A DNA stretch of 52,986 bases from a virus: the IMG/VR virus record IMGVR_UViG_3300025112_000017, positions 1 through 52,986 of that record; one strand, given 5' to 3'. Positions 2,068 through 49,776 of the stretch are shown one piece after another. Made by a program: the position numbers and the translations under genes. The notes beneath the pieces are model-generated. The model was not told where the DNA came from and did no database searches. It saw only the letters and a program-made list of their open reading frames with translations. The first letter of the stretch is position 1. Each line of letters starts with the position of its first letter.

Positions 2068-2097
2068 AGTATAACCCGACGTTATCAAACCTGTCAA
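2068..2097 (-). promoter_or_regulatory. Leftward sigma70-type promoter
   Basis: Read on the minus strand: -35 TTGACA (2097-2092, perfect), 18-bp spacer, -10 TATACT (2073-2068, five of six). It drives the gene at 2013 and the leftward operon beyond. The spacer holds an inverted repeat ATAAC-N5-GTTAT (2071-2085) that overlaps the -10 box, which suggests repression by a dimeric DNA-binding protein. Confidence 0.75.
2071..2085. promoter_or_regulatory. Operator candidate, ATAAC-N5-GTTAT
   Basis: Perfect 5-5-5 inverted repeat within the spacer and -10 box of the promoter at 2068-2097. The same motif occurs at 3386-3400 and 52112-52126. The XRE-type protein encoded at 3046-3360 is the natural candidate to bind it. 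Confidence 0.65.
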
Positions 2098-2101
2098 CCC
2101 C

Positions 2102-2122
2102 GAAACTACCAAGGGTAGTTTC
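2102..2122. other. 21-bp perfect palindrome (9-bp arms, 3-base loop)
   Basis: GAAACTACC, AAG, GGTAGTTTC. It lies between the end of the gene at 2141 and the -35 box at 2097. No T-run follows on the minus strand, so it is not a standard terminator. It may be a protein site just upstream of the promoter or an mRNA end-stabilising hairpin. Confidence 0.6.
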
Positions 2123-2140
2123 CGCGCGCGTATGCGTGCG

Positions 2141-3049
2141 CTATGTGTCCATGTACGACTCGGCTTCGGAATCGGCACAGTCCTCTTCGCGCATCATCTC
2201 ACGTATCTGCATACCTGCGGCTGCCTCTAAGGGTATGTCCCTGTTCCATGCCTGGTTGAGCATGCGTGCGTACTGACCTCTGAACGTGCGTTCGATTGAG
2301 CCTGTAGTTTTCCAGTCTGTACAAAACCCCTGGTTCCACCACTGAGGTACTAACCTAGATAATAAGGACACCCCTTGCTGGTAGATACCTAAGGCTGTCT
2401 CTCTATTTATAATAGGAGACCTGTACTCTAAGAGCCCGGCCAGTTCAATAAGTTGCGCAGCATCCTTGGCATCTAAGGCTAACACTAGGGATACCATAAG
2501 CGCGTGCTTTACAGTAGGTACCGAGGGAACAAGTAAATCAAAGTCTCGCCAGGCTTCGCAGACACCCTGTGCGTAGTGCTTGGTTGTACGTGTGTACCCA
2601 AGTGCGGCTGCGTCTACGATACGTGCGTTCACAAGTGAGCGCACGAGCTTGCGGTAGCGCTTGATGGCCTGCACACACACACGCGCTTCCTCTTTTGTAG
2701 TAAGGGAATCCGCAATGCTTCTTACAATTCCATCTGCCCACGCGCGCTTGGATGCATCGGTCAGGGTTTCAGGGGACACCACCTTCACTTGTATGTTCTT
2801 ACCTGGGAACTTCCAAAGCCTACCCCTCACACCCAAGAAGAACTCCCGCCTGCCTGGTATGACACCCACCCAATAGGTCTGCATGCCTATCTGGATCAGA
2901 CCAGCAGACACTATGTCGTACCTTTTCCTCTTGGTACCACCCTGCAAATAGAAGTACCCAATGTTTGCGCCGTAGTTATTTGAATCCTCTCTACCTTGGG
3001 AGTACTTCTTCCTGCACTTAACGCTTGGCGGTGCGTTCCTGCCTTTCAT
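2141..3049 (-). CDS. Hypothetical protein, 302 residues
   Basis: Starts with an ATGA overlap on the stop of the XRE gene, so the two are co-translated. The protein is basic at the N-terminus (several Lys/Arg groups in the first 50 residues), mixed in the middle and helical with many Ala/Leu towards the end. I recognise no domain. Cotranscription with a repressor candidate makes a regulatory or immunity role possible, but this is inference from position only. Confidence 0.75.
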   Translation of the reverse strand: MKGRNAPPSVKCRKKYSQGREDSNNYGANIGYFYLQGGTKRKRYDIVSAGLIQIGMQTYWVGVIPGRREFFLGVRGRLWKFPGKNIQVKVVSPETLTDASKRAWADGIVRSIADSLTTKEEARVCVQAIKRYRKLVRSLVNARIVDAAALGYTRTTKHYAQGVCEAWRDFDLLVPSVPTVKHALMVSLVLALDAKDAAQLIELAGLLEYRSPIINRETALGIYQQGVSLLSRLVPQWWNQGFCTDWKTTGSIERTFRGQYARMLNQAWNRDIPLEAAAGMQIREMMREEDCADSEAESYMDT

Positions 3050-3360
3050 TCCAGGGTCTCGCCAGAAGGCTGCTCACATGACGGGCAATAAATATCCCCC
3101 ACGTATAGAGTGTCGCACTCTATGCACGCGCGCTCTTCCTGTTTGGGTGTTACGTCCTCAACCATAAGGCTGAGACAGTGCTGACCGTTCAGCCCGAGCA
3201 CCTCTTGCAAGAGGCACAGGTTCTTTATTGTTGGCATGGTCTTACCGGATTCCCAGGCTTGATACGCAGGTTGTGAGACGCCAACAGCCTTTGCCACCTT
3301 TCGCTGGGTCAGGTTCTTGTCTTCTCTTTTTGATGTGAGATGCTTCCCAAATACAGTCAT
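3046..3360 (-). CDS. XRE-family HTH regulator with C-terminal zinc ribbon
   Basis: Residues 18-44 form a clear helix-turn-helix of the Cro/CI (XRE) type: TQRKVAKAVGVSQ, then AYQAWESGKTMPT. A zinc ribbon follows with Cys at about 79, 82, 92 and 95. The start ATG at 3360 has AAGGAG seven bases upstream. The gene is divergent from the helicase gene, and the 61-bp gap between them holds an operator-like inverted repeat, the classical arrangement for an autoregulated phage repressor. Family knowledge: XRE proteins bind short inverted repeats as dimers. I infer that it controls both directions here and the promoters at 2068 and 52109. No integrase is seen, so a lysogeny role is not supported; an early-gene shut-off role is as likely. 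Confidence 0.85.
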   Translation of the reverse strand: MTVFGKHLTSKREDKNLTQRKVAKAVGVSQPAYQAWESGKTMPTIKNLCLLQEVLGLNGQHCLSLMVEDVTPKQEERACIECDTLYVGDIYCPSCEQPSGETLE

Positions 3361-3382
3361 TGCTTGACTCCTTGTTTCACAT

Positions 3383-3411
3383 ACGATAACTCACAGCTAT
3401 CACCCCGGCAA
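3383..3411 (-). promoter_or_regulatory. Divergent control region: leftward promoter with operator (3386-3400)
   Basis: Minus strand: -35-like TTGCCG (3411-3406), 17-bp spacer, -10-like TATCGT (3388-3383), both four of six. The operator candidate ATAAC-TCACA-GCTAT (3386-3400) lies across the spacer and -10, as at 2071. On the plus strand TTGACT (3364-3369) with GATAAC (3385-3390) is a poor rightward match (15-bp spacing) that the same operator would cover. I infer autoregulation of the XRE gene and control of the helicase operon. Confidence 0.55.
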
Positions 3412-3421
3412 GGAGGACAAC

Positions 3422-4765
3422 TTGACCGACATTGAGAGACACATCTTAGCTACCCTGCTGATGTCAGCGGGCGCAGGATTCGAGGAAGCAGAAGAGGAAC
3501 TGCAACTACAAGACTTTTGCTCTGAGCAGCACAGAGCCTTGTTCGCGTGGATAGGAAACCAAATACAGATGAAGCTAACACCAGACCTATCGGTGTTGCT
3601 TTCGGACAAGAACGTGTCTGATTCTGTGGGTGGGAAGGACTACATTCAAAGGATGATAGCGTACGCTGGCCCGCCAGCTTCTATGAGGAGTTGGGCTACC
3701 AAGCTTCATAGCGGTGCTCGCATGCGCAGGATTCAGGATGCAGCAAGCGAAATCATAGAGCTATCCAAGACCGAGGTGACAGCGGAAACTTTAGCTAAAG
3801 AGTCTGAACAGATAATGCTGAACGCCACTGCGGATAAGTATTCAGAAGGACCTCAAGGGATTGACTCTTTGGTTACAGCAAGATTAGACCAGTGGGAAAA
3901 GATTCAACGGGGTGAGCTTACTGAGTACGTCCCGTCTGGGTTCAAATCATTTGATGACCACTTCTTTGGCTGGCCCGTAGGCTACCCTGTAATCGTGGGT
4001 GGCCGCACCAAGATGGGCAAGACCATGTTCATGCTGTCCGCTGCTTTACGGGGCGCACACACGGGCGTGCCGCAAGGAATACTCTCTATTGAAATGCCCG
4101 CTTCATCCTTAATGGATAGGATTGCTGGCGTGAGCGCGGGCGTCCCCTCGTTTGCTGCTCATCGCGGTACAGAAGAAGACATGGAGAAACTGTGGGATGC
4201 TTTGAATACAGTGCGCAAGCTACCCATACAAGTAGACGAGTCCTCAAGGAGGCTGTCTTCTATTGAGTCTTCGATCAGAAGAATGGTTCGCAGGGATGGG
4301 GTGCGTGTAATCTGGCTGGACTATCTTCAACTGATCAGCGGTGTGGGCAGGGTCGATAACCCTGTTCAAAAGATTGAAGAAATCTCTGAAGGTATCCGGG
4401 CTATTGCCAAGAGTGAGGGTGTATCTATTATCAATATGATGCAGTTCAATCGAGACGGCGAGCGTGTAAAGATTGACGGTAAGCTGGGGTACCCAACAAG
4501 TACAGCGTTCCGTGGCTCAGACAGGCCACTGTTCGACAGCGCTATAGCCTTCGGGCTTTACAGGCCGTGGCATTACCAACCACCAGTAGACGCCATCACA
4601 GGGCAGCCACTACCACCTGAATCTTTGGGTGATAGGCTTCAGCCGCTGGAGCTTGTGTGTCTTGCGTGCAGGTACACCGCCCCTAAGAACCTCAAGTTTT
4701 GGGCTCGTCTATCAGTCCAACAGCTATTCGACGGTCAAGATCCAGGATTTGGCGAGACCAAATAG
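3422..4765 (+). CDS. Replicative DNA helicase, DnaB type
   Basis: Hexameric 5'-3' helicase that would unwind the phage fork. Residues 1-100 match a DnaB N-terminal domain. The RecA-like domain shows Walker A GRTKMGKT (194-201), Walker B ending VIWLDYLQL with Asp300, and a later QFNR sensor-like motif near 343. At 447 residues it is about the family's normal length. The start codon is TTG at 3422: AAGGAGG (3410-3416) stands five bases before it, and no ATG has a comparable site nearby. It is the first gene of the rightward replication block. The 3' end overlaps the convergent gene at 4692 by 74 bp. I saw no separate loader gene, so host DnaC or self-loading would be needed. Confidence 0.93.
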   Translation: MTDIERHILATLLMSAGAGFEEAEEELQLQDFCSEQHRALFAWIGNQIQMKLTPDLSVLLSDKNVSDSVGGKDYIQRMIAYAGPPASMRSWATKLHSGARMRRIQDAASEIIELSKTEVTAETLAKESEQIMLNATADKYSEGPQGIDSLVTARLDQWEKIQRGELTEYVPSGFKSFDDHFFGWPVGYPVIVGGRTKMGKTMFMLSAALRGAHTGVPQGILSIEMPASSLMDRIAGVSAGVPSFAAHRGTEEDMEKLWDALNTVRKLPIQVDESSRRLSSIESSIRRMVRRDGVRVIWLDYLQLISGVGRVDNPVQKIEEISEGIRAIAKSEGVSIINMMQFNRDGERVKIDGKLGYPTSTAFRGSDRPLFDSAIAFGLYRPWHYQPPVDAITGQPLPPESLGDRLQPLELVCLACRYTAPKNLKFWARLSVQQLFDGQDPGFGETK

Positions 4766-5284: not shown

Positions 5285-5313
5285 TTGACAGCCTCAGGTT
5301 ATCACAATAAAAG
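5285..5313 (+). promoter_or_regulatory. Rightward promoter with conserved element
   Basis: -35 TTGACA (5285-5290, perfect), 17-bp spacer, -10-like TAAAAG (5308-5313). The segment 5286-5308 recurs at 49416-49438 with about two differences in 23 bases (common core TGACAGCCTCAG, then TTATCAC). It also contains ACAGC-N5-GTTAT, one base off the operator seen at 2071, 3386 and 52112. It lies between the divergent genes 4692-5279 and 5334-5582. Confidence 0.55.
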
Positions 5314-5333: not shown

Positions 5334-5582
5334 ATGGACAAGATAAAAGTATACATGGCAGCGACCGGCGATTCGTTGGTCTCTATAGCAAGGCGGGCTG
5401 GGGTGGACCCAGCAGAGTTGAGGAGAATTTCGGCTAACAAAAGGAAGCCAGGGAAGAGAGTACGAACACGCATAGCGTTCGCTATGGGTATCACACTAAA
5501 CGAACTAGACGCAGACATGGATGTGTTTGTGTCACGAATAAGGAAGTCTAATGACTTGGAAAGAAATCGAGGCGATTCTTAA
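5334..5582 (+). CDS. Small HTH DNA-binding protein (Cro/XRE-like), 82 residues
   Basis: Residues 13-40 (LVSIARRAGVDPAELRRISA) look like the helix-turn-helix of small XRE/Cro-like proteins; family calls on such short proteins are uncertain. The start ATG 5334 follows a G-rich stretch (GGTGGGGGAG) somewhat far upstream. Its 3' end overlaps the next gene by 32 bp. With its own promoter and the conserved element upstream, it may be an autoregulated second regulator. Confidence 0.7.
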   Translation: MDKIKVYMAATGDSLVSIARRAGVDPAELRRISANKRKPGKRVRTRIAFAMGITLNELDADMDVFVSRIRKSNDLERNRGDS

Positions 5583-6414
5583 GCGCCCATTCGATGACCA
5601 CGAAATCAACTGGAAACTAAAGACTGTCACCAGTAATGGTAAGGCTTTGTTGCTTGCTTACATGGACGCTCGTGGAGTGCGGGATAGGCTTGATGAAGCG
5701 TTCGGTCCACACTGGATGACTGCTTACTGTGCGGGGCCAAGCGGCGGCGTCATGTGTACGCTGTCAGTTAAGTGGAACGGCGAATGGGTTTCTCGTTGTG
5801 GTGTTGCAGAGAACACTAACATTGAAGCTGTAAAGGGTGGCGCATCAGATGCACTCAAGCGTGCGGCTACTGCCTTTGGGGTTGGCCGTCATCTGTATGA
5901 CTTAGGCGCTACGTTTGCTACCATCCAAGACAAGGCAGACTACAGTGTAGAGAACGGTAGGTCGGTGTATTGTAAGGGTAAGGGTTATGCTGTTGCCCCA
6001 AGTATCCGGGTTGCGCAGCCTGACTTATTCAATAAGCCAGCACCCAAGAAGAAAAAGCCAGCACCCAAACCTCAAGTAAAAGCTCCTGTTGTTCCTGGTG
6101 TTCCGGCTGCTATGGAAGCCAAGACAAAGAAGACAACTGCTGATTACATCAACAAGCTAAGAAGTATTTGTAAGTCCCGTGAGCTTAGTAAGCTGGAAGC
6201 CGAAATGTTTATTGGCTTATGCACCGCCATTATGAAGGACGGGGTTGTCGATAAACAAGGGTACTCTCCTAAGGGTCTGAAGAACGCCAGCCTACAAGTA
6301 CTGCGTATCGCTGTCCGTAAAGGGATGGAGCTTGATGAGCTTGATGATGGTGGCTTTACCGACAAGCTGTGTGCGTATGAAAACATTCATAAGTCTTTAG
6401 GTCCTCAACAGTGA
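5551..6414 (+). CDS. Rad52-like single-strand annealing protein
   Basis: Residues 80-120 carry the signature of the Rad52/Rad22-like recombinase group: SRCGVAE, then GGASDALKRAATAFG, then RHLYDLG. These proteins coat single strands as rings and anneal complementary DNA without ATP. A Lys/Pro/Ala linker (about 160-190) leads to a C-terminal helical domain (200-287) that in relatives binds SSB or the nuclease partner. The Cas4/RecB-like nuclease and two SSB-like genes downstream make a two-component recombination system likely. The length of 287 is in the range seen for phage members. ATG 5551 overlaps the previous gene. Confidence 0.85.
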   Translation: MTWKEIEAILKRPFDDHEINWKLKTVTSNGKALLLAYMDARGVRDRLDEAFGPHWMTAYCAGPSGGVMCTLSVKWNGEWVSRCGVAENTNIEAVKGGASDALKRAATAFGVGRHLYDLGATFATIQDKADYSVENGRSVYCKGKGYAVAPSIRVAQPDLFNKPAPKKKKPAPKPQVKAPVVPGVPAAMEAKTKKTTADYINKLRSICKSRELSKLEAEMFIGLCTAIMKDGVVDKQGYSPKGLKNASLQVLRIAVRKGMELDELDDGGFTDKLCAYENIHKSLGPQQ

Positions 6415-6433
6415 GGGCTAACAACTCATCCCT

Positions 6434-6488
6434 GGGGTGGCGGGATTCATTACCAACCAATGGTTCTGTATCGGGCAACCGCCATCCC
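6434..6488 (+). other. Intergenic RNA stem-loop ahead of a small zinc-ribbon gene
   Basis: GGGGTGGCGG (6434-6443) can pair with CCGCCATCCC (6479-6488), giving ten pairs with one G-U. The loop holds a second small stem (ACCA 6452-6455 with TGGT 6461-6464). It lies in the only sizeable gap of this operon (6415-6502) and ends 14 bases before the next start codon. No T-run follows, so a terminator is unlikely; it may protect mRNA or control the next gene. Confidence 0.45.
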
Positions 6489-6502
6489 TACGGGGGTGCT
6501 AA

Positions 6503-6667
6503 ATGAAACTCGCCTATCAGAAGTGTGAACTGTCTGGCTGCCACAGGCGCGGAAGTGTGTTCAAGCAAAGCGACATTACTGGAAAGTATTTGGTGGTCTG
6601 TGTTGAGTGTGCCCAGAAAGGAAAGAAGAAGAAGCCTGTAGGTTCAAAGCAAGGGAGCTTGGTATGA
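6503..6667 (+). CDS. Zinc-ribbon miniprotein, 54 residues
   Basis: Reads ATG AAA CTC GCC TAT; protein MKLAYQKCELSGC..., ending in a Lys-rich tail (KGKKKKP). Cys at 8 and 13 and a CVEC pair near 33-36 suggest a treble-clef or ribbon zinc site. The next gene starts inside the stop codon (ATGA), which supports translation. The upstream CGGGGGTG is a poor ribosome site, so the RNA stem just before it may matter. Function unknown. Confidence 0.65.
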   Translation: MKLAYQKCELSGCHRRGSVFKQSDITGKYLVVCVECAQKGKKKKPVGSKQGSLV

Positions 6668-6957
6668 TGAAAAAAAGTAAATGGGTAGAGACCGAGATCG
6701 AAGTTGGAGGAGAAGTTTTCCTTATTCCCCTGCGTTGTCGGATGGAAGCAAAGAATGGGCGGTTCCGAACTCGCATTCAGATAAGGGATCTCCAGACCAA
6801 TAAATGGCACGCACGCCATACGAGTGATTGGATGCGTCTCCCTGCGATCACAAAAGTCACACGCGACTATTTAGACACCCTGGCCGAGGGGATGGCAGAT
6901 AAGCTTGTCCACGATACTGTGGCCCATAATATGCTGCACCCTGATTGGAGGGTGTGA
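6664..6957 (+). CDS. Hypothetical protein, 97 residues
   Basis: Start ATG 6664 forms an ATGA overlap with the previous stop; a second ATG follows directly. The protein begins Met-Met-Lys-Lys-Ser-Lys and has a beta-rich first half (EIEVGGEVFLIPL) followed by a basic strand and helices. It could be a small nucleic-acid-binding fold, but no family is recognised. The stop overlaps the next start by one base. Confidence 0.7.
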   Translation: MMKKSKWVETEIEVGGEVFLIPLRCRMEAKNGRFRTRIQIRDLQTNKWHARHTSDWMRLPAITKVTRDYLDTLAEGMADKLVHDTVAHNMLHPDWRV

Positions 6958-7154
6958 TGGCTAATCGTAAACCATCATTGACAAGCAAAGCAGTCGATGG
7001 ACTTAGCACCGTTCAGTATATAGCTGAAGCAAGCTTGGAGAGCTTTGTAACCGACGCTGTTAGGAACACAGAATACGAACGAAGAATTATGCGCGGCATC
7101 AAATACATACAGGAACTGACCGATTGGTATGCCATCAAGCAGAAGGGGGGGTGA
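6957..7154 (+). CDS. Hypothetical protein, 65 residues
   Basis: ATG 6957 shares a base with the previous stop (TGATG) and has GGAGG five bases upstream. The product is helical and mixed in charge, without Cys clusters or membrane segments. No family is recognised. It is likely a small accessory factor of the replication operon. Confidence 0.65.
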   Translation: MANRKPSLTSKAVDGLSTVQYIAEASLESFVTDAVRNTEYERRIMRGIKYIQELTDWYAIKQKGG

Positions 7155-7157
7155 GTG

Positions 7158-15500: not shown

Positions 15501-18500
15501 CCTGGGGATAACTCTAAATCTTTTTCCATAACAGACCACAGTTTACGCATGTGCTCTGTTGTTCCAGGGGAGTCCTTCAACGCTGAGAAGGAAGCAATGA
15601 GCTTGTCCTCTACTGTAAGGTTTTTCGTTAGGGTGTTGAAGTCCTTCCAAAGCTGGATCTCCCAATCTCGTAGCTGGCGGACATACTCACCCCCCCTTGC
15701 TGTCTTGTCTGGAAGACGCAATTCAAACGCTTCAGCGTGCTCAACTTCAAGAATATCCAGCCTTGCTGGGGCGTCCATGGATTGCTTGGCTACCTTGGCA
15801 AGCACCCGCTCCTCCGCACCCGGCAAGCTCTTGATTGCGGAAGCATCAGCCTTGGCTGTAGCCTCAGTAACCATACGCTTAGCTGCACGAAGTTCACCAA
15901 GCATAGCTGAAGGAGAGTTGCCTGATTCGGTTTCGAAAAGAATCTGACCCGTCCTCTTGGAGAACCTGTCTATCCAACGGGACAGACCTTTCTGGTTTTC
16001 TCTTCCACCATACAGCCTCCACATTGACTTACGGACACGATCAATAGCCTCTGCTTCTGTCTGAGCACCATGAACAGCACCGCGCAATCGGTTGTAGGCC
16101 GCTGTCTCTTTGGTGAATATACCTGTAGCCGCCCCAACCTTAGCGCCCGCACCCTTGCGCCCAGTCAGGGCTTTTTCTGCTAACTTACTGGCAAGTCGAG
16201 AGTTGACGGACCTGCCGTATGTCATCCCTGCGAATAGGTTCTGTATTTGCGGGGGCATTTGAATGTCGATATCGCTGGATCTTAGCTCCTCGTACACGCT
16301 ACGCATGGATGTCTTCAGTAAGCTGAACGCCTTTACTAACTCATCAGATGCACCAGTTGGCGCGATGTGGTCGTAAACAAACCGCTCAAAAGCACGGGCA
16401 AAAGTTTCCTCTGCTGCTCTCGTCCACTTCCCATCCTTGACTCCAGCGAACCTTTCGGCAGCCCTAAGCTGAGCATCGGGAAGTTGCCGCCTTAGTATGT
16501 GGCCCATTTCATGGATGAGTGTAGATGCGTCTGCATTCTTGTATAGGTACAAGATAGCGCGGCCATCTTCGACAAACTTTACAGCACCCTTCTTTACTTC
16601 GTTCCCTATTTGGTAGAGAGGCTCCCCCTCTTTAAGGACAAGCTTCTTGAACTCCTCTGTGAAGAGCATAATCCGAACACCGACATCAGTGCCTTGATGC
16701 ATACCATAAGCATCCTTTCCTAACTCAAGAGCAACCGTGTCTATTATTCTTCGGTACTCCTCCTCTGAACCACCGTTCTTCAGATAGGCCTTCCTGACGG
16801 CCAGGTCTTCTCCAGCCGGGATATGAGTGTACCCATCCTCAAGCTTCATGCCGTGTTTCTTGTACAGCTTCTTGATTCGAGACGGGACCACTGTGTCGTA
16901 ATGTACGATGTGCCCAAGCCCGCCTTGGTATCCGTAGGTTCTTTCAAACACAGAAGGGGGTATCTCTCTCACCCTCTTGGCGCTTGATGCTTCTAACACC
17001 CATCGATCCTCTATAAACTGGCGGATATGTTCCGGCCAATCACTCCTAGGGGTACGCTCAAGTAACTCAGCCAGTTCCGCGCCGCCGTGGAACATGGGGC
17101 CCGCTCCACCCGACCTGTGGTCGGGTACAGGGGAAAACATGTTTGTCCTGGTGGTGTCGAAGGGAACAAAGGAGGGGGGAGCTTGGCGTGGCTCGAAGAC
17201 GACTTTTTCTTCTGATAACTCTCGGATCTTTTTCAATGCGTCTTTATAAATGCCTGTGTTTATACTTCCCATACCGGCGGGCTCGGTGAAGCTCTTGTTC
17301 GCCCGTTTAATTCGCCAAGCGATCTCCTCCTTCAAGCCGGTGAGGCCAGCGGCGGGAGCCCTTGCGTCCGTGAAGGCCTCTTCAAAGAGGCGACCAATCT
17401 TGGCACCCTCATACCTAACATTTCTTAGCACGAGTTGATGCAACTTCGGGTCAGCCTCAAGACTATTGAGGTCCAACCCCCGCCGGTAAGGGATGTCAGC
17501 GCCAACACCAAGTACATGCTTTACGTAAGCGGGCTTCCCTATAAGCTTTTCTAACTCCGTAGTCTGAAGAGAACTCCAGTCGTCAGCGGAGTCAAGTGCG
17601 GAGTCAAATACTTTGAAACCCGCCGCATTTTCAGGAGAATAAAACTTTAATGAAGTTTGTCTGCTCTCGCGCCCAGGGTGGTACCTGTACAGGTTTGTTC
17701 TTCCTGTATCGAAGGAGATACCGTCCTTACCCATTTCAACAGCCTCTCTTACGGCTGCCTTGATGCTAAGGTCTACCCAGTTTGTTTTGAATGGCGCGTC
17801 CGGGAGCGAACGGGTCCCGTAACCCCCTTTCCCGCCGGCCTTGTGTATGTCCGATTGCAGTTCACCGACATGAAGAAGGTCATAGCCTGGTGTGGTTGGT
17901 GCTAATGAGGCTGGTCTGCTGAACATGCTGGGCATGTTTTCTTTCGGACCAATGTAAATCATTCCGTTCGGATCGCTTGGATACTTTTTTGCTAGAGATT
18001 TCCAGACCCTCTGCGATGCGCTGTTCCTCGATGAGGTGAGGGCGGGAGAGAAAACAAACCCGCCCGGATGTTTACTCCTAAGATTCTTGATGGCCTCTTC
18101 GTATAGCCACTTCCCAAGACCCTTGCCCCGCAGGTTGTAGTCAATAAGAACATTTCGCACACCCTCGACCGGCAACCCCTCGATTTTAGGAATTGGCTTG
18201 TGCTCAAGCTTTAGGCCGCCAACTTGTTTGTCTTTAATAAATATAAACACCCCCCCAGTGTTCATGTTCCTGTTAGACGCGGCTTGGTAGGTGTGCCTCG
18301 GTAGTGGGCCGCCAGGAAGCACGGGCAATATTTCATGAAACGAAAGCGCCCTCTTACTGGATGCCAATGGAGTGGGAGGAGTACCTATAAAACCCTCTCG
18401 AACAGAAGCTCGAACATGGGAAATCAACCCCATTCCAGAAGTGTTTTTGTAATGAGAATTATTGTATACGTGGCCAAACTTCATGGAGAAGCTTAAGAAG

Positions 18501-21500
18501 TCTGCATCATCGGGCTGAACAACCCGCAGGGACTTGACCGGGTAGTCTGCGGTTACAAGAAGCTCTATCTCATGGGTTGAGCCCGGAAGAGTAAGAGACC
18601 AGTGGGACCAATTTGGTGTATTTCTGTGTACGCTTGTAAGGCTAGAGTACTTGGCCCCACCAGCGGTGTGAACAACCTGCCCCGGCAGAACAGGTGGATC
18701 AGTTAGTATCAGTTCAAGGTGACGAGCAATAGATTCAGTCCTCTCACCGGGGTACCGACCCTGAAGAACGCCCAATACCCTCTCATCTCGGTACGTTGGT
18801 ATAGTCTGTTCATCTATAAAGTTGCGAACTGAATTAGCAAAACCGGTGAACTCAAAATCATCAATCGCTCTACCGTAGCTGCTCTCAAATATGGCGTCTC
18901 TTGCCCACGCACCAATTGTTGCCGTTATGTCTGTGAAGCTCCTTTCGCCCTCCAAGGCCAGAAGGTCTGAGACAATCGCGCTCCTGTTTTGAAGAGCATC
19001 TTCTGCGGAGAGGACGAACTTTTCCATCTCGTCCATTGTGGTTCCGGCAGGCATCATCTCCTCTAAGGTCCACTGCTCGGTTAATTTTTTAACCTGCTCA
19101 TCAACCAGTTCCCTCCTGAAGAGTTCCTCTTTGTCTATCCTGGCAGCCGCCGCAGGGTCTATCTCATGGGATTCCAACCGAGTTGAACGAGCCTCAACGC
19201 TCACGCTTGCGTTCTCTGTTTCAATAGCCTCCAAGAACTGTTGCTTAGTCCAACGCTCCGCTGGGGCACCCTCAAGAATACCAAGCAGGCCGTTCTCAGC
19301 CAACTCCGCTTTCTTTACACTAGAATGGGCTGCTCGTTTAGAGGTAATAAGCTCACGCACCTGCGCGCTTGTGAGCACCTTATCCGTCTTAACCCTCGTC
19401 GAAGGTCTTCCACTGCCCGTCTTCTTTGTAGGCCAGTTCTCATCCACATAACGAGCAAGTTGGCTGTAGAAGACAGGCCCCATGCGCTCGTCTATTTGAT
19501 ACAACGTGTCAGCCGACATGCGGCCACGCGCGCGCTTGATATCAGCAAAGGTGTGTGCCCACCAATCAGACGGTGCGTTGCCTGTCTCCAAAGCCCAGGC
19601 AAGGCTCCTGCCGAAGTGTACAGCCAAGATCGCCTCTACCTCCTCATCGGAAATGTTGAGCCCTTTACTGACGGAGCGCAGCTTCTCCTTTATAGCTATC
19701 GCTTCAGCGGACTCTGTAGCCCCCCTCATCACGGAGGCCGTTCGGCTTACCTCGGATGGGACGAGGTTGCTCATCATGTGAAACCGCTCTACCTCTCCAC
19801 GCGCAAGCGCGAAAGCTCTCTCAAGACCCTCGGGTGCTTCAGCAGCGCCTGATATCAGCCAGTCCTCGAAGGTCTTCCACTTCTCTACACCGACAATCGC
19901 CTGGGCACTGATCAGGTGTTCTTCAGCAAGAAGCTTAGATACATACTCCAAATCAGGGAGAGAAGAACCCGCACTGACCCTGTGCTCCCCAATAAAGAAC
20001 TCTTCCAACTCTCCATACAAGAACGCCTCAATAGAGGCTGCCTCGTAGTCAAGTCTTATTGCAGCGTCTTTTACCGCGCTAGCAGTAATCTCTTTAGATT
20101 TAGCAGACCACTTCTTGCCCCACTGAGTGTCCTGCATATAAGTCGCAAGCTTTCGCATAGAGAACAGGATGTCGTTGCTACCCATTGCTGCATTCAAAGA
20201 GTTTTCGAAAGCCCGAACCGCAGCGGAGTTGCCGTCAAAGGCTTCGTGCAGGGCGGTACGAATCCACCCCAGTTGGGACTCCTCCATAGTAATGCCCAGC
20301 AACTCGACACGAAGTTCCTCTAAGGTAGCGGCAAGCTTCTCGGGAGAAAGCCCACGCACCACGTTCCGAAAGGACGCCCTGCCGCGGGCCGCTGAACCGT
20401 AGGCTGCCCGTAAAGAAAGAATCCTTTCGTGCGCCACCACCTCCGGGTGGTCTATAAGGTTCCTGGCTAAGGACATCTGGCTTTCCAACTCAGAGATAAA
20501 CTCTGGAGTAGCTTTTAGTTCTCGCTGCATCAGCACCAGAATCTGCCGAAGCGCGTCTTCCTCTACTTCTACGCCCTTCTTGTACTTCTGCACAAGGGCC
20601 TCTATTTCTGCAACAATGGGGGCTAACTCTGGTCGACGCTTTATCAGGCCAGCACCAGTTTCAATCTCATTGGCGGCTTCCGCGAGAACAGCCTTCGCAT
20701 TATAGCCAGGCGTAAGGTACCGCTCATTACGAGCTATGCTCTCCTCTAAAAAATGAATAACTAGTTCGCGACCGGCCTTCTCTTCAGAAGACAGTGCAGC
20801 CTTCTTTTTTACTTCCTCCTTAAGAATCTCTTTACGAAGGTTCTTGATCGCTTCTGGCGCGGCGGCCTTGTGTCTTTTCGCTGTGTCAGCAGCGTTTGCC
20901 GTAATACGGTTCACGTGCTGTAAAAGCTCTGACTCCATGAACCCATGCTTGCGCATGTATCCGTGTAATGAATCTATGTACTGGTCCCACAGTTGTTGTG
21001 GCACACGGCGAAGCAGACCATCCTTATGAACATTTAGGAACGGCTGCATTGATGTTGTGCCAAACGCTTTGGCAATCCAGTCGTAAGCAACCGTAGGCCA
21101 CAAAAGTGCTGCGCTGCCAGACTTCGCACCAACAAACAAAAACTTCTCAGCCGTTGTGAGTTGGTCGAACTGAATAAGCTCTGACCCAAGAAGCATCTCT
21201 AAGGACTTGTAGCTATCAACCGGTGCCCTCAGCCACGACAAGCCTTCCCCTCTCGTGGTGGCGGCTTGCGCCTCCCGCCATGCCTCAACCTTGGCAAGCC
21301 GTTTAGCCTGAAGGCCAGCGTCTACCCCTGCCCGGTGCTTCTTGAGTTCTGTACCCGCTGAACGAGATGCCGCGTACTTTCCTGTAGACTTAGGCTTAAG
21401 TGCTATGCTCGGGGACCCCGCCACCACTTCCGCAGGAACAATGTACCTAACCTTTGATGAGCCAGGCATGTGTACAGGAAGCCTACCTGTGGGTTTTAGC

Positions 21501-24500
21501 CCTGTTGACTTGCGAACATCACTAATCCTGGTGCCCTCTAAGAGCTTGCCGTCAAGCGATCTACCACCCCTAAGCAACCGGACGTTATGGTCGGCAGCCC
21601 TGGCTGTATGCTCAAGCTTGTTCGCATCACGGATCAATCTGCGGCCCTGTCGGCGCATAAACTTTTCCGCACCAGCCGTGTCATCGAAAACCGCAAGCTC
21701 AGCTTTGGCGTCGGACAGTTTCTGCGTAAGTTTTCTTACTTCGGATGCGTGTGCTGCGCGCTCTACCTCTGTAAGTGTCTCTATTACAGGCTTGGCAAGT
21801 GGGCCTATCCGCTCAAGACTTCTCTCTACGGCCTCTACTGTGAGCCTCGCATCTTCTGCGAGCTTTCCCGCTGTAGATCCGGGGTTGATTGCACCAGAAG
21901 ACTTAATGTCATCGGCAGCCCTAACCAAATCCTCACCAGCCTGCCTAAACGAGACAGACTTCTTGCCGGCACCTATGAATGTGTCATGAATAAGCTCGGT
22001 CGTTTTCTTCACGCTGGCCAACAAGGCCGCACGTTCGGCCTCATCTGCAACAGTCTGTAGCTTTCGAATATCTAATTGCATCTCAGCGAGGCGCTGTGCC
22101 CACGCGGCTTCTCCACTAATAGATGTAACCCCACCACGTTGGGACAGAATCGCCAACTCTTTGGCCATCTTGTTGAAGCTCTTGTCAGCCACAAGGATCT
22201 CGTCACCAACCTTCAATAAGCGCGCACTTCCTCCGACCCCACCCCACAACAGGGGGTCAAATAAAAACCATGAAGTCATCTCCATGATCTCTTTACCAAC
22301 AGGGGATGTCATTACGTCCCACTGCCAAGAGGCATCCTTTGGTTCGTACTTCTTCAGTGCGTGGGCTTCCTGTGGAGACACAGCGTAATCAAAGAAGTAC
22401 TTGAAGCTTGGGTTGAACATGCTTCGACCCCCTTCCTCAGGGACCTCGAATCCAATCCAATCCGCGTTCTGTCCGAATGCGTACCCGAAATGCCCTTCTG
22501 AGAAAGGTTCTACACCGTGAGTGATGTCGTAAAACTTTCGAGCCACATCTTTCGCTTTGGCCTCAGCAGCGTGATCTCCCTCAAAATCAAACCCAGCAAA
22601 CACCTCATCGAACGCCTCAATCCGACCGCGCGCACGCTCGGGTGCGCTAAGCATTGCTGCACCGTAGGCGCGCAGGCCCAAGTAAGCGCCAAGCTGAGCC
22701 TCTCTACGAACAATATCCAACCCCCAACCAAGCGTATGAAACGCTTGAACAAACCTGTTGGGGCCTGCCTGCTCAAGGTACTCGTCAGGGCTAACGAAGT
22801 CGTAATCCGTCCACTTGGAGAAGTGACGGAAGACATCCGATGTAGGGTCGTGACTCTCTTTATTAATTAAAGCAAACCACTCACGGATGGAAGCCTGGTC
22901 TGTCGGGTCTACACGGGGGATGTTCGTCGAGTACTTAGGTCCCCGCCCAAGGTCGATGGTTACATCTAAGGCAGAGGGTAAGTCTGGGTTGCCGAACCTA
23001 TCAAGAGCACCACCTGAGCGTAGTATCTCAAACCCCAGGTCAACCTCAGGTGCTGAGATGGGAATAGTCGGCTCGCCGTACAACTCTTTAGCAGCAGCCT
23101 CCACCGCGTCCCGCATACTGCTGGGCAGTACCCCTGGTGTAATCAAGCCCCCAACACTCCCTGCTGCCGCCTGGGACCAAGCGGATGTTTGAGCCTTGAC
23201 TATGTCGGAAGCTTCCGTGGTGTCTTCAATCTCACCAAGAAGGTACGAAACCGCCTCGCCTCTGCGAGAAAGCTCTTCGAGCCTCTTCTTCTCTTTATCA
23301 GTAAAGGGGCGGTCATCCTTCTGCTTGTAGGTCGAAAGAGAAAAGATTTCTTTAAAAAAGACGGACTTACTGCCGAAGAAGCTCTCTTCCCAATCTCGCT
23401 TATTAGAGATTATCGCAACCATCTCTAGAGCAATGTCCTTCTTCTCCGCCTGTAGCCTCGACCTCTCCGCGCTCCCGGTAAGGCTTTCATTCAGCGCTCC
23501 GGTAGGGATGAAGGCTGGTTGGGTGTGTAGGATTTCAGGAACTTCGGCTGGACTGTTCTCAACTAAGGCGTTGTACCGCTTTCTCATTTCCCCGAGAGGT
23601 TTCTGGAGAGGCTCTAATTCTCTTTTAAAAGCAAGAAGGTCTTTTACTTTTCCGGTAATCGTAAGATTGTTCCCGCCAGAAAGGGGGATTTGAACAGACG
23701 TTTCTTGGTTAAGCCTCCTTCCGGTTGCCCCTTTTAACCCAGTAAGGTTCCGAACAATATCTGAGTTTAAGAGATTTCCATCATTAGAAAAACCTGGGGT
23801 AAGCGCAGCCACGATTGACGGGAACGCCTCCGACTCCAGCAAGGAAAGAACATGCTTGTCCCTTGGTGCCTTACCCAAGTGACTCTGGCCCTTCCAGGCT
23901 CGGTCAGCACGGCGAAAGAACGATTGGTAAGCCTCATCAATAGCCTGGTTGAGAACAGCATCATCAACAGGTGAGTTGTAGGTGACATCACCGTGCATGG
24001 TAGTCAAGCCTTTGTCGCCAATAGGCTCCTCGTTCAGAAACGTAACCGACCCCGGCTCCAACCTTTTCAGCTTGCGAAACACCCACCAAGCAAGCGAGCC
24101 TTCACGCGCCGACCCCCCTACAGCCGGTAGAGACCTTTTGGCATTCTCTCTATCTCCCCCACGGAATACAATATGGTCTTTACCCTCGACCGCTATCTGA
24201 ACCTTAAAGGTGCGGGCTGTTTCGAGAGCACCTTTCCACGCATGCATAGGAGATCCGGGCTCTCCCCACCGGGCAGTCTCATACCTTCCGCCAAGCTTGT
24301 CCTCCCAGTAATCGCTAAGGGGAGCGCCGTTCAGGCTAATCTCCACCAAGCTATTCTTGTTGGACTCTACAGAATACACGGCGTCCATAAAGGAGGAGGC
24401 GAACTCTGATTTATCGAAATCAATTACGCCACCCCACCCAGGGTAGCCTGCACGAATTGCTTCGCGAGAGTTGTTGTCTAAAGACACCGCGCGCTGGAAG

Positions 24501-25411
24501 CTGTCTTTACTGGCAACCCTGGGGCGCATAAACAAGCCGCCCTCGTTAGCCCCCCAGTCGTACTCTTGAGTCAACCTGTGGGCTATATCCGAGTGCTCAT
24601 ACGGTGCCTTGTGAAAGTTTTTCCACTCCCTTAGAGCCGTGTTTACATCTTTATGTTCGTCATACGCTTTACCAATAGCAAGAGCTACCTCTGATGTAGC
24701 GTCCTCATAAAGCTGTCTTCGATCTTTGGGTAGGTTGGCAAAACTACTGGAAGATTGGCCAGCGCTGTAGTCTTCCGAATTGGAAAGGTTGGGATACATC
24801 ACCTTTTGAATGGTGCTCACCCTCTCAGCACCCTCTTCTCCGGAAGAGAGGTTTCGCATTACAACGAATCTGTTTTGGCGGGCTAAGTGTTTGTGGTACA
24901 GCGGGTTGCTGAATTGTGAAACCAACGCCTGACCCACGAGCCGTGGGATGCCTGTGTTCGGGTCTTTCTCTATCTCAACATATTGCCAGATAGGTTTACC
25001 ATCACTGCCCCGAAGATACCCCCCAGGGTCTACTAAGTCCCACTCTTCTCTGAGTGCAGGTACCCCCTGGCCCTCATCCTCATAAAGCCCCGCCAATTCT
25101 ACAGAGTAAGCGGACAACTCTTCCGGTGTAGATTGAGCCTTGCTGCCGACCTGTTCCCCAAAGAGGGGCTCGAACCCATCCTTATGACGAAAAAGCTGCT
25201 GCTGCGCCACATTAGATATCTGACCACCGTCGTCACCCTCAAAAGAAACGGGCTTCACAGGATCTACGTCTGTCTTAATGTCAGCCACAGGGGTGGCTTC
25301 TACAGGTGCTACAGGCACTATTGGTTCGACACCCCCATCAGGTACTGCGGGGGTCGGGTCGTACTTGGGCCAGGAGAGAGGGGTTAGCTTGTTTGATGTT
25401 GGGTCAGCCAT
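12581..25411 (-). CDS. Giant polyvalent virion/ejection protein, 4276 residues
   Basis: About a quarter of the genome in one unbroken frame. Visible parts: a Pro/Val-rich N-terminus (1-50); long helical and coiled regions (about 1080-1300 and 1490-2000); a GNAT acetyltransferase-like segment (about 2380-2490, with LRGKGLGKWLYEEAI); the segment GELQSDIHKAGGKGGYG near 2515, which I know from large phage polyvalent proteins; a zincin-type HEMGH motif (His near 2967) with Glu about 30 residues on; a C-terminal module with FHARNAVSN near 3708 and PFFVWSNKN near 3938. Its place last after the ejection genes suggests it is packed in the capsid and delivered with DNA. No vRNAP catalytic motifs of the N4 type were identified. 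There is no clear ribosome site before ATG 25411; it starts seven bases after the upstream stop, so translation is probably coupled. Confidence 0.85.
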   Translation of the reverse strand: MADPTSNKLTPLSWPKYDPTPAVPDGGVEPIVPVAPVEATPVADIKTDVDPVKPVSFEGDDGGQISNVAQQQLFRHKDGFEPLFGEQVGSKAQSTPEELSAYSVELAGLYEDEGQGVPALREEWDLVDPGGYLRGSDGKPIWQYVEIEKDPNTGIPRLVGQALVSQFSNPLYHKHLARQNRFVVMRNLSSGEEGAERVSTIQKVMYPNLSNSEDYSAGQSSSSFANLPKDRRQLYEDATSEVALAIGKAYDEHKDVNTALREWKNFHKAPYEHSDIAHRLTQEYDWGANEGGLFMRPRVASKDSFQRAVSLDNNSREAIRAGYPGWGGVIDFDKSEFASSFMDAVYSVESNKNSLVEISLNGAPLSDYWEDKLGGRYETARWGEPGSPMHAWKGALETARTFKVQIAVEGKDHIVFRGGDRENAKRSLPAVGGSAREGSLAWWVFRKLKRLEPGSVTFLNEEPIGDKGLTTMHGDVTYNSPVDDAVLNQAIDEAYQSFFRRADRAWKGQSHLGKAPRDKHVLSLLESEAFPSIVAALTPGFSNDGNLLNSDIVRNLTGLKGATGRRLNQETSVQIPLSGGNNLTITGKVKDLLAFKRELEPLQKPLGEMRKRYNALVENSPAEVPEILHTQPAFIPTGALNESLTGSAERSRLQAEKKDIALEMVAIISNKRDWEESFFGSKSVFFKEIFSLSTYKQKDDRPFTDKEKKRLEELSRRGEAVSYLLGEIEDTTEASDIVKAQTSAWSQAAAGSVGGLITPGVLPSSMRDAVEAAAKELYGEPTIPISAPEVDLGFEILRSGGALDRFGNPDLPSALDVTIDLGRGPKYSTNIPRVDPTDQASIREWFALINKESHDPTSDVFRHFSKWTDYDFVSPDEYLEQAGPNRFVQAFHTLGWGLDIVRREAQLGAYLGLRAYGAAMLSAPERARGRIEAFDEVFAGFDFEGDHAAEAKAKDVARKFYDITHGVEPFSEGHFGYAFGQNADWIGFEVPEEGGRSMFNPSFKYFFDYAVSPQEAHALKKYEPKDASWQWDVMTSPVGKEIMEMTSWFLFDPLLWGGVGGSARLLKVGDEILVADKSFNKMAKELAILSQRGGVTSISGEAAWAQRLAEMQLDIRKLQTVADEAERAALLASVKKTTELIHDTFIGAGKKSVSFRQAGEDLVRAADDIKSSGAINPGSTAGKLAEDARLTVEAVERSLERIGPLAKPVIETLTEVERAAHASEVRKLTQKLSDAKAELAVFDDTAGAEKFMRRQGRRLIRDANKLEHTARAADHNVRLLRGGRSLDGKLLEGTRISDVRKSTGLKPTGRLPVHMPGSSKVRYIVPAEVVAGSPSIALKPKSTGKYAASRSAGTELKKHRAGVDAGLQAKRLAKVEAWREAQAATTRGEGLSWLRAPVDSYKSLEMLLGSELIQFDQLTTAEKFLFVGAKSGSAALLWPTVAYDWIAKAFGTTSMQPFLNVHKDGLLRRVPQQLWDQYIDSLHGYMRKHGFMESELLQHVNRITANAADTAKRHKAAAPEAIKNLRKEILKEEVKKKAALSSEEKAGRELVIHFLEESIARNERYLTPGYNAKAVLAEAANEIETGAGLIKRRPELAPIVAEIEALVQKYKKGVEVEEDALRQILVLMQRELKATPEFISELESQMSLARNLIDHPEVVAHERILSLRAAYGSAARGRASFRNVVRGLSPEKLAATLEELRVELLGITMEESQLGWIRTALHEAFDGNSAAVRAFENSLNAAMGSNDILFSMRKLATYMQDTQWGKKWSAKSKEITASAVKDAAIRLDYEAASIEAFLYGELEEFFIGEHRVSAGSSLPDLEYVSKLLAEEHLISAQAIVGVEKWKTFEDWLISGAAEAPEGLERAFALARGEVERFHMMSNLVPSEVSRTASVMRGATESAEAIAIKEKLRSVSKGLNISDEEVEAILAVHFGRSLAWALETGNAPSDWWAHTFADIKRARGRMSADTLYQIDERMGPVFYSQLARYVDENWPTKKTGSGRPSTRVKTDKVLTSAQVRELITSKRAAHSSVKKAELAENGLLGILEGAPAERWTKQQFLEAIETENASVSVEARSTRLESHEIDPAAAARIDKEELFRRELVDEQVKKLTEQWTLEEMMPAGTTMDEMEKFVLSAEDALQNRSAIVSDLLALEGERSFTDITATIGAWARDAIFESSYGRAIDDFEFTGFANSVRNFIDEQTIPTYRDERVLGVLQGRYPGERTESIARHLELILTDPPVLPGQVVHTAGGAKYSSLTSVHRNTPNWSHWSLTLPGSTHEIELLVTADYPVKSLRVVQPDDADFLSFSMKFGHVYNNSHYKNTSGMGLISHVRASVREGFIGTPPTPLASSKRALSFHEILPVLPGGPLPRHTYQAASNRNMNTGGVFIFIKDKQVGGLKLEHKPIPKIEGLPVEGVRNVLIDYNLRGKGLGKWLYEEAIKNLRSKHPGGFVFSPALTSSRNSASQRVWKSLAKKYPSDPNGMIYIGPKENMPSMFSRPASLAPTTPGYDLLHVGELQSDIHKAGGKGGYGTRSLPDAPFKTNWVDLSIKAAVREAVEMGKDGISFDTGRTNLYRYHPGRESRQTSLKFYSPENAAGFKVFDSALDSADDWSSLQTTELEKLIGKPAYVKHVLGVGADIPYRRGLDLNSLEADPKLHQLVLRNVRYEGAKIGRLFEEAFTDARAPAAGLTGLKEEIAWRIKRANKSFTEPAGMGSINTGIYKDALKKIRELSEEKVVFEPRQAPPSFVPFDTTRTNMFSPVPDHRSGGAGPMFHGGAELAELLERTPRSDWPEHIRQFIEDRWVLEASSAKRVREIPPSVFERTYGYQGGLGHIVHYDTVVPSRIKKLYKKHGMKLEDGYTHIPAGEDLAVRKAYLKNGGSEEEYRRIIDTVALELGKDAYGMHQGTDVGVRIMLFTEEFKKLVLKEGEPLYQIGNEVKKGAVKFVEDGRAILYLYKNADASTLIHEMGHILRRQLPDAQLRAAERFAGVKDGKWTRAAEETFARAFERFVYDHIAPTGASDELVKAFSLLKTSMRSVYEELRSSDIDIQMPPQIQNLFAGMTYGRSVNSRLASKLAEKALTGRKGAGAKVGAATGIFTKETAAYNRLRGAVHGAQTEAEAIDRVRKSMWRLYGGRENQKGLSRWIDRFSKRTGQILFETESGNSPSAMLGELRAAKRMVTEATAKADASAIKSLPGAEERVLAKVAKQSMDAPARLDILEVEHAEAFELRLPDKTARGGEYVRQLRDWEIQLWKDFNTLTKNLTVEDKLIASFSALKDSPGTTEHMRKLWSVMEKDLELSPGVAKDWALGPRLQAENSRIAPVVEELRDLIKKYERLYEESGMDFMANPTIMLQKWGVVDYFPHSFVDGGSILSTAGSQRAGGAIETHRRMKSFMGRSPVSLDERLTVSMDAQRRRGIMGTIREINMQIESKGEFGVDPLQIVRRYMQANGKITAREFLFALLDTGVIQPILPILREDGTVIPASKVARQRGYIPLLARESDEIESISREHILFGTRKQWAELDLTEPSKLEALLGFDLVSIKVGKESALRRKGSFYKSNRFATWATEVGEIKAISRIEDTIGAIRYYEMKSGADKLTNVRDLVRSALELTDEAAQNAALDSIAASLRDRVMKYANQDIRFKGKDLRMYFAGGQEGWKLYIPESVVASMENILAGQLGESGAFKGALDNIQNFYKVRLTVLAIAFHARNAVSNVVQSFLNLDVPTVLDPKSNMISGVLAVGVSHYEEFGSMVKARKALAAPRLHGETTLAYNSRQTRSKLFETQYGRMIDDGVDLGDGVIRSLDDSYDILKRHGVLSESFTQYVDIADVEANLLDMMARNGLGGTWTKAKQGLSVTEDALVVMLPMAITGGLPVTLPKGLGASLGRTIENQARVLNFRGALSQGASLADSAKRVEKHLFNYGDLTSVQKQYMRTIFPFFVWSNKNVWLQLESIGKVPSFYSSFNHLMYEGLPNIANAALEDEETGLRPVNPNRQSMLAKREPHSYHRISLPVPGMSNVFMEGFGLPQEGFNEWLNPFFDSARFLRHGVIGHLNGADYKTRYWNHSGRQPLLRVVGQGNIPIRVLAELGSGRHFFYDKPISELTNGRMIADMTRGIADRFGGPGELAADYINQMMGLSMAWRVNEEGTAYDDIPVVSGTANWAVGSLPWGRLIKQAVSYTDIASLSHAASLGSVDSSGAFSPAHGYGTAIDPGSTDIPSYLRAVEALSGLRVTQRNAKWENAIMRARLRDFMNEQYKAKKLLKESESPVGVDPLK

Positions 25412-41512: not shown

Positions 41513-41775
41513 TGGACAACACCAAAGACCCCGAACGGCCCGTTCGAAGTAAGCTCCGTCACGTTTGTAGCAGCAACCGGGTTCTTCTTAGAACTCGGTG
41601 CCAGCTTCTTCTTTGCCTCGATAACACCGCGCGCCGTGGTCACTGCTTTCAGTAAAACGTCCGCCTCTCGCGGCGTAATACTTCCAGAGCACATCGCTTC
41701 AACCGCTGCTTGCGTAGTGTTTAACAAACCGTCGAACGAATCCATGGTGATTCTGCCGTCAAGTGGATTACTCAT
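41509..41775 (-). CDS. Small protein before terminase, small-subunit candidate, 88 residues
   Basis: Helical protein with a Lys-rich linker (EAKKKLAPSSKK) near residue 58. It is coupled by ATGA upstream and GTGA downstream, directly before the large terminase gene, where the small subunit is often found. No clear helix-turn-helix is visible, so the call rests on position; the upstream RHH protein is an alternative small subunit. Confidence 0.5.
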   Translation of the reverse strand: MSNPLDGRITMDSFDGLLNTTQAAVEAMCSGSITPREADVLLKAVTTARGVIEAKKKLAPSSKKNPVAATNVTELTSNGPFGVFGVVQ

Positions 41776-42272
41776 AATGACCTCATGATTAGGTCAGCAC
41801 CAATCCCGGATTCGGGAAAGCACTGACAAAGCGCATCTATAAACTCTCTATCATTACGCAGCACTTGTAAAGCTCTCTTTAGGCTCATGTGTACCGCCTG
41901 TTTGGAGCAGCCCTCTTCCGAAGCGATGTCCACAAGCTGCATCCCGGACAATCGTTGCTCTAACCGTGCCGCCTGAGAAGAGGAGAGCTTCCTGTAGATA
42001 ATCCTCTTAAGGTGTGTGTCCATAACACCACCCGTATACAAGTCAGTAACAACCGGCCTTCTAGAGGCGAGATATTCAAGAGCCCTGTCTGGCCATGATG
42101 CGTTCGCTATCACCACTTCACGCACCGCGCTTAACTCAGAACTAAGTATGTTTTTAGAAATCGCGAGACGAACAACCTCACTTCTTGATATACCTAGACT
42201 ATCGGCGCGGTCCTTGACTTGCCGATCCATTCGGTCTGTAATCCACATTCCGATATACTTAGACTTAGTCAT
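41772..42272 (-). CDS. RHH plus sigma-region-4-like DNA-binding protein, 166 residues
   Basis: The first 50 residues match a ribbon-helix-helix of the CopG/Arc type (KYIGMWITDRMDRQVK, then GISRSEVVRLAI). Residues about 105-145 (SSQAARLEQRLSGMQLVDI, then GCSKQAVHMSLKRALQVL) resemble the region-4 helix-turn-helix of sigma factors. Either a terminase small subunit that reads the packaging site or a late transcription factor would fit. No ribosome site stands before ATG 42272, so translation depends on an upstream frame or on the codon at residue 9. Confidence 0.7.
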   Translation of the reverse strand: MTKSKYIGMWITDRMDRQVKDRADSLGISRSEVVRLAISKNILSSELSAVREVVIANASWPDRALEYLASRRPVVTDLYTGGVMDTHLKRIIYRKLSSSQAARLEQRLSGMQLVDIASEEGCSKQAVHMSLKRALQVLRNDREFIDALCQCFPESGIGADLIMRSL

Positions 42273-47508: not shown

Positions 47509-47581
47509 TGGGGTGTAGTTCAATCGGCAGAACGCCTGACTGTTACTCAGGAGGTTGTTGGTTCAAGTCCAGCCGCCCCAG
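47509..47581 (+). tRNA. tRNA-Asn (GTT)
   Basis: Complete cloverleaf of 73 bases: acceptor TGGGGTG pairs CGCCCCA (one T-G pair), D stem GTTC/GAAC, anticodon stem CCTGA/TCAGG with loop CTGTTAC (anticodon GTT), T stem GTTGG/CCAGC with loop TTCAAGT. CCA is not encoded. Phage tRNAs usually compensate codon bias or replace cleaved host tRNAs. It lies between two rightward genes. Confidence 0.9.
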
Positions 47582-47603
47582 CTTCTCACATAAGGAGACT
47601 ACC

Positions 47604-47831: not shown

Positions 47832-48216
47832 AGGCAAGCCAGTACCGCCAGACGTAGCGCACTCTAATGACAAGACAGTTGTTTCTATACTAGTAGAGTT
47901 CCTAGTAACCATACGTATTCTACTAGTGGATACTGTTGCTATAATTTAATTAACCACAGTTACAACAAGCAAGATAATTAACAGTTGCTACTAGTAAGAA
48001 CCCCAGTGACATACGTATAGGTACCAGAGGGTAAAGTGTTATAGGTCCTGTATCCTTGTCAAGGGCAAAAGCAAGCTGGTTTTACAAAGTATTACTTTTA
48101 GATACAACCAGTGACCTACGTGTAAGGACTAACCCCAATCGCAATACCCCCATTACGGAAGACGCTCTTCTTGTATTCAGTATATTTTTTATGAGAGGTG
48201 TATAGATACTAGTAGT
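47832..48216. other. AT-rich intergenic DNA with palindromes and repeats
   Basis: No gene is seen. ACTAGT palindromes stand at 47889, 47922, 47990 and 48208; ATACGTAT at 47911 and 48011. Two near-copies of CAGTGAC(A/C)TACGT start at 48004 and 48109. The stretch 47875-48000 is clearly AT-rich (TAATTTAATTAA around 47942), so it melts easily. GAAGA-CGC-TCTTC (about 48159) is a weak hairpin that could end the rightward genes. A T6 run lies at 48185-48190. Confidence 0.6.
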
Positions 48217-48443
48217 ATGGGGGCATGGGGGGGCGTGCACGGGTGCGGGGGCGCGCGTACGGGGGCGTGCGCGTGTGTGTGCCCGCATGCGCAAGCGCCT
48301 GCCCACGTATGTGTGCGCATGTGCCCACGTATGCCTGCGTGTGTGTGCGCATGTGAGCGTATGTGCGTGTACGTGTGTGTGCATGTACGTATGTGTGCAC
48401 GCAAGCGCCTGTGTGTGCACGTGTGGGTGCCTGTGTGCACGTG
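48217..48443. repeat. Alternating purine-pyrimidine tract 1
   Basis: About 225 bp, G-rich at first (G-runs to about 48270), then long alternating GT/GC/AT steps on the plus strand. Repeated words include GCAAGCGCCTG (twice) and CCCACGTATG (twice). Such DNA is prone to the left-handed Z form under negative supercoiling. Open frames in it are low-complexity artefacts (Cys/Val or His/Thr). It lies between the convergent ends of the rightward genes and the gene at 48794. Confidence 0.85.
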
Positions 48444-48520
48444 AAAGGGTGATTTATGCCGATTTTGACACTATTAGACCCTCTCCTACCGGTATCCGCA
48501 CCGCATTAGAACCCCCTGCA

Positions 48521-49360: not shown

Positions 49361-49415
49361 TTTGTCCTACCTTTTAGGGTTTCCATCACCCGGTTTTGTC
49401 TGGCCGGTCATCGGC

Positions 49416-49438: not shown

Positions 49439-49465
49439 CCGGCGAAAAAATTCAAGTTCTTTTGG

Positions 49466-49480: not shown

Positions 49481-49490
49481 GGGAAAAGCC

Positions 49491-49757: not shown

Positions 49758-49776
49758 CTACTTATAAAGTGAAGGC

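Follow-up and report, generated by a model that had tools for sequence, protein, structure and literature searches.

The window analysed here, 52,986 bases long, is the entire record of an uncultivated bacterial virus (phage), which belongs to a lineage with almost no known relatives. The two ends of the record have nine bases in common (TTCGCCCTT, at 1–9 and 52978–52986), and a 116-codon open frame crosses the join once one nine-base copy is dropped. The genome map is therefore most likely circular and the record looks complete, so that the leftward genes 2016 to 1 run on into those from 52914 to 48794. Non-coding DNA makes up 8.1% of the genome. The features that concern us, with promoters as predicted and operators as proposed below, are:

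2068–2097, minus strand: promoter PL1, TTGACA-18-TATACT, with operator O1 at 2071–2087 (TGATAACGTCGGGTTAT) centred at about −17; directed at the leftward genes 2016 to 1 and onward past the circular join
2141–3049, minus strand: 302-aa protein, overlapping the XRE stop codon and in the same transcription unit as XRE
3046–3360, minus strand: putative XRE repressor, 104 aa, HTH_3 domain at residues 11–57 and a C-terminal CxxC...CxxC zinc ribbon
3383–3411, minus strand: weak XRE promoter, TTGCCG-17-TATCGT, with operator O2 at 3386–3402 (TGATAGCTGTGAGTTAT)
3422–4765, plus strand: DnaB-type replicative helicase, divergent from XRE
5285–5313, plus strand: promoter PR, TTGACA-17-TAAAAG, with operator O3 at 5288–5304 (minus strand TGATAACCTGAGGCTGT) covering the −35 box and spacer
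5334–5582, plus strand: 82-aa Cro/C1-type HTH protein, first gene behind PR
5551–12332, plus strand: rightward replication/recombination block, with Rad52-like, two SSB-like (a label from reading the translations, with no database hit behind it), Cas4-domain exonuclease and DnaG primase genes
48794–49360, minus strand: 188-aa ORF behind O4 that carries a CxxC pair and a tail rich in lysine; it matched no family
49415–49435, minus strand: operator O4 (motif 49418–49434, GTGATAAGCTGAGGCTGTCAG), 55–75 bp upstream of the leftward ORF 48794–49360
50401–52092, minus strand: 563-aa DUF932-like protein (E=0.0017, below the curated cut-off), downstream of PL2 and O5
52109–52138, minus strand: promoter PL2, TTGACT-18-TATAAA, with operator O5 at 52112–52128 (TGATAGCCTGGCGTTAT); directed at 52092 to 50401 and onward

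The product of the XRE gene has the N-terminal XRE domain of lambda/P22-type repressors (HTH_3, E=1e-14). Its residues 58–104 form the CxxC...CxxC ribbon, and a domain search found neither a peptidase match nor a C-terminal CI-like domain, so that the LexA/Peptidase_S24-like part of such repressors is missing. A structure model built from two sequences (mean pLDDT 81) matches the P22 C2 DNA-binding domain most closely (E=7e-4) and DdrO, SinR and further XRE proteins as well, and P22 C2 is among the best PDB sequence matches. As modelled, the protein is an HTH protein of the P22 C2/Cro fold. The 82-aa protein also has a Cro/C1-type fold, with a transcriptional regulator as its best PHROG, and is a candidate Cro analogue or alternative binder. 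The 302-aa protein matched no Pfam, PHROG or NCBIfam family above cut-off.

The initial annotation had described three inverted repeats of the form ATAAC-N5-GYTAT, at 2071, 3386 and 52112, and had read them as a three-site regulon of the XRE protein. The positions, half-sites and five-base gaps of all three are exactly as described, the repeat at 3386 does lie upstream of the XRE gene, and on re-reading the sequences at 2071 and 52112 we found good leftward promoters with 18-bp spacers and the operator in an identical register. The genome scan proposed as a check, with the 15-base pattern, one mismatch and two strands, was not striking: there were 8 matches against 3.6 ± 2.4 expected, and 6 of 100 shuffles reach this number. 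On the minus strand, and with flanking bases included, the original three are TGATAACGTCGGGTTAT, TGATAGCTGTGAGTTAT and TGATAGCCTGGCGTTAT, and the pattern TGATARC-N5-GYTRT adds exactly one place to them, 5288–5304. With TGATARS-N5-GYTRT the genome scan gives five matches against 0.06 expected, a count reached by none of 100 shuffles; the pattern was fitted to the sites themselves, so the expectation is post hoc and an independent test is called for. These five are the original 2071–2087, 3386–3402 and 52112–52128 and the additional 5288–5304 and 49418–49434. All of them are non-coding and they are graded in quality, while the structural block 12329–46024 is operator-free.

Four of the five operators lie within recognisable promoters. 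A genome-wide sigma-70 scan, the scores of which presuppose a sigma-70-like host, gave six promoters scoring at least 9.5, and the only three that are non-coding are PL1, PR and PL2, each overlapped by an operator. At O4, which is identical to O3 at 19 of 21 bases, the scan gave no promoter better than background. The XRE and dnaB genes diverge from a 61-bp gap that holds both O2 and the XRE promoter. O2 overlaps this leftward promoter in the same register as O1 and O5 do theirs, an overlap absent from the initial annotation. A repressor operator at the repressor's own promoter is the usual autoregulatory arrangement. In PL1, PL2 and the XRE promoter the operator centre is about 17 bases ahead of the expected start, so a protein bound there would be expected to exclude RNA polymerase. 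The half-site GTTAT feeds into the −10 box, and motif and promoter scores are therefore partly linked; the −35 boxes of PL1 and PL2 fall outside the operator, and the upstream half TGATARC is conserved although it is not part of the promoter consensus. It is possible that the 3386 site also serves dnaB through TTCACA-16-TATCAC on the plus strand, but the start would overlie the ribosome-binding site and we make no such claim.

For comparison we used a relative, a 10.2-kb IMG/VR contig (L004/L006) that encodes the same gene block, with identities of 78% for DnaB, 77% for the 302-aa protein, 74% for the 82-aa HTH protein and 57% for the XRE protein. Three of the five operators are retained in syntenic positions, in the gaps upstream of XRE, of the 82-aa gene and of the leftward genes:

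L006:960–980: counterpart of O1, with promoter TTGACA-18-TATATT
L006:2270–2290: counterpart of O2, operator kept, with TTGCAT-17-TATCAT
L006:4172–4192: counterpart of O3, TTGACA and operator kept

A PWM built from the window's first four sites ranks these syntenic sites first to third in the relative (19.8, 18.3 and 15.7; the next scores 9.6), and when the relative was shuffled none of 200 shuffles matched the scores of its three sites. In the other direction, a PWM from the relative's three sites only ranks the five operators first to fifth in the window, where the fifth, 49415–49435, scores 14.6 and the next 11.2. In both genomes the next-best score after the operators is at chance level. 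The site at 49415–49435 is not decisive alone, as 17% of shuffles top as high as 14.6. The relative's sites were first spotted with the pattern derived from the initial annotation, which leaves the second direction not entirely blind, and we give more weight to their syntenic position. When the gaps are aligned pairwise, blocks of identity coincide with the operator and the promoter hexamers, and the flanking sequence has diverged; of the operators, the one at the XRE promoter is the best conserved between the two phages. This footprinting used one relative, a 10-kb fragment, with O4 and O5 beyond its reach; apart from remote DnaB proteins, a search for further relatives of XRE or DnaB recovered this contig alone. 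Other IMG/VR contigs that match the promoter-plus-operator pattern encode none of the window's proteins, and were for this reason excluded as evidence.

Conserved, non-coding, located at promoters and in one case at the promoter of the XRE gene itself, the sites appear on these comparisons to constitute a well-supported repressor regulon. The regulon first proposed has thus stood up, with its number of sites raised from three to five. As the rightward early promoter is included, the arrangement would be an immunity-region-like switch and not a small leftward regulon.

The XRE protein, named as the binder from the start, is likely to be so, with the second Cro-type HTH protein (5334–5582) as an alternative or additional binder. 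The relative shares the recognition helix of XRE, SQPAYQAWE, residue for residue, although much of the remaining protein differs, and we count it in favour of XRE that a protein at 57% identity keeps this helix and that the operators are likewise kept. Other XRE proteins with an SQPAYQ helix tend to have upstream repeats with the inner C-N5-G geometry: two ATAAC-N5-GTTAT repeats precede a bacterial XRE gene (L025), and TATAC-N5-GTATA repeats occur at several clostridial genes. As extra support these bacterial comparisons are suggestive only. A family-wide search for relatives of the L025 protein recovered only itself, so the recognition-helix argument stays weak.

The explanation that we hold to be probable as a whole is that the phage XRE repressor binds TGATARS-N5-GYTRT and shuts the leftward early, the rightward early and its own promoters, one small repressor probably keeping the early genes off via five near-palindromic sites. 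The motif, its positions, non-coding bias, conservation and promoter overlap, and the fold and family of the protein, make up the direct part of this model. An XRE dimer would contact both operator half-sites, covering the −10/spacer region for RNA polymerase at O1, O2 and O5 and the −35/spacer region at O3. Steric exclusion of the polymerase would then shut the leftward early promoters 2068–2097 and 52109–52138, probably a third leftward promoter near 49415, and the rightward replication promoter 5285–5313, which is headed by the Cro-like gene. At its own weak promoter, 3383–3411, XRE would exert negative autoregulation, and the structural genes 12329–46024 would stay silent because the early genes are off. 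We infer that XRE is the binder, that it represses by binding and that the outcome is a lysogen-like or latent state. The scanned proteins, which include only part of the small ORFs, yielded no recognisable integrase, ParA/partition protein or other gene for lysogeny, and a lysogenic life is conjectural for this phage.

Possible, though clearly short of an even chance, is that both HTH proteins use the same operators with a different order of preference and form a CI/Cro-type bistable switch, which would be an elaboration of the XRE model and not an exclusive rival. In lambda and P22, CI and Cro use common operators. In keeping with such a switch, there are two HTH regulators whose promoters both have an operator, and the sites are graded in quality; the operators are, however, single and isolated without clustered triplets, and the recognition helices of the two proteins have no evident similarity.

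We think it unlikely that the operator is mainly that of the 82-aa protein and that XRE has another role. The 82-aa protein would in that case be made first from PR and then turn down the early promoters in the manner of Cro, with lytic growth only, which fits a phage in which integrase was not recognised among the proteins scanned. Its gene lies directly behind the operator 5288–5304, and it combines a Cro/C1-type fold with better conservation than XRE (74% against 57%). However, the XRE promoter holds the best-conserved operator and it is SQPAYQ-helix XRE proteins that elsewhere tend to have C-N5-G repeats upstream; the two binder models are in any case not exclusive. That a host regulator, such as a host XRE or LacI-type protein, recognises the sites and lets the phage sense host state is improbable: the inverted repeat is generic, but the operator is co-conserved with the phage's own regulator and located at that regulator's promoter. 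Chance, or a repeat derived from two promoters with similar −10 regions, is scarcely credible, since it accommodates the near-chance count of the original 15-mer with one mismatch but is contradicted by the five non-coding matches to the extended form, by an upstream half TGATARC kept outside the promoter consensus and by the cross-genome test.

The XRE system resembles P22 C2 and lambda CI in its XRE-type HTH repressor and near-palindromic operator, in operators that overlap the −35/−10 regions of leftward and rightward early promoters, in an operator at the repressor's own promoter (3386–3402, kept in the relative) and in a Cro-type HTH gene at the head of the rightward early operon. Lambda/P22-type repressors carry a C-terminal LexA/Peptidase_S24-like domain that provides cooperativity and RecA-dependent self-cleavage. 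Here, unlike in P22 and lambda, the repressor is 104 aa long and has a zinc ribbon where they have that peptidase/dimerisation domain; the operators are single and scattered instead of clustered in triplets between repressor and cro; the Cro-like gene is 2 kb off behind its own operator, with dnaB as the divergent partner of the repressor; and an integrase was not recognised among the proteins scanned. As two defining features, the peptidase domain and the clustered operators, are missing, we do not place the system in that family. A zinc-ribbon repressor without a peptidase domain raises the testable question of how such phages are induced. We regard it as quite doubtful that the ribbon replaces the SOS peptidase so that induction, in a lineage without integrase, comes from metal, redox or an antirepressor and not from DNA damage.

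RstR and DicA regulate phage or phage-like genes and, like the XRE protein here, are XRE repressors of small size that lack a peptidase domain; the XRE protein reaches 42 of the 80 bits and 35 of the 101 bits that their models (NCBIfam NF041951 and NF007257) require, far short of either curated cut-off. Mycobacteriophage L5 (cluster A) has one repressor acting at stoperators in many places, including the early promoter; these are more than 20 asymmetric 13-mers, mostly off promoters and oriented with transcription (PMC9283540, PMC6550527). The likeness is only that of one motif at scattered places, since the sites here number five, are near-palindromic and in four cases fall within recognisable promoters. 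The MqsA antitoxin has an N-terminal zinc domain and a C-terminal XRE HTH (PMC2791442). The XRE protein shares the combination of an XRE HTH with a four-cysteine zinc module and, over the HTH part, matches the MqsA HMM weakly (E=0.003, below cut-off), but the order is reversed, HTH then zinc ribbon, and no MqsR-like neighbour of the XRE gene was recognised. The system belongs to the broad kind of phage repressor with early-promoter operators and to none of these specific families.

On this reading the early control circuit of an uncultivated phage becomes drawable, with its early promoters, those that are repressed and the sequence responsible, and the exact operator would let immunity groups be predicted among related phages. 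The design is a classical switch, here in a lineage with almost no known relatives.

Some further observations were made on the genome. A second trace of the lineage is a 5-kb viral contig (L042) with, at 1033–2652, a terminase 80% identical to the window's; considered as an operator test, the contig stops short of the operator regions and contains only one weak, chance-level match. Adjoining the terminase genes, a 166-aa protein (41772–42272, minus strand) has a weak match to sigma-70 region 4 (E=0.008, below cut-off) and is possibly a late regulator. One 4276-aa ORF (12581–25411, minus strand) takes up about a quarter of the genome and gave no match in a Pfam search. A tRNA-Asn (GTT) gene at 47509–47582 on the plus strand precedes a non-coding, AT-rich stretch that contains inverted repeats of ACTAGTAG; the gene was considered as an attP site and set aside, integrase not being recognised. 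Three long non-coding stretches (48215–48480, 49462–49771 and 52168–52402) have near-strict purine/pyrimidine alternation, with maxima of 93%, 90% and 88% over 100 bases where the genome averages 47%, and since they alternate without being simple repeats they are predicted to be Z-DNA-prone. Two of the three lie near operator regions, those at 49415 and 52109, and start about 30 bases upstream of them.
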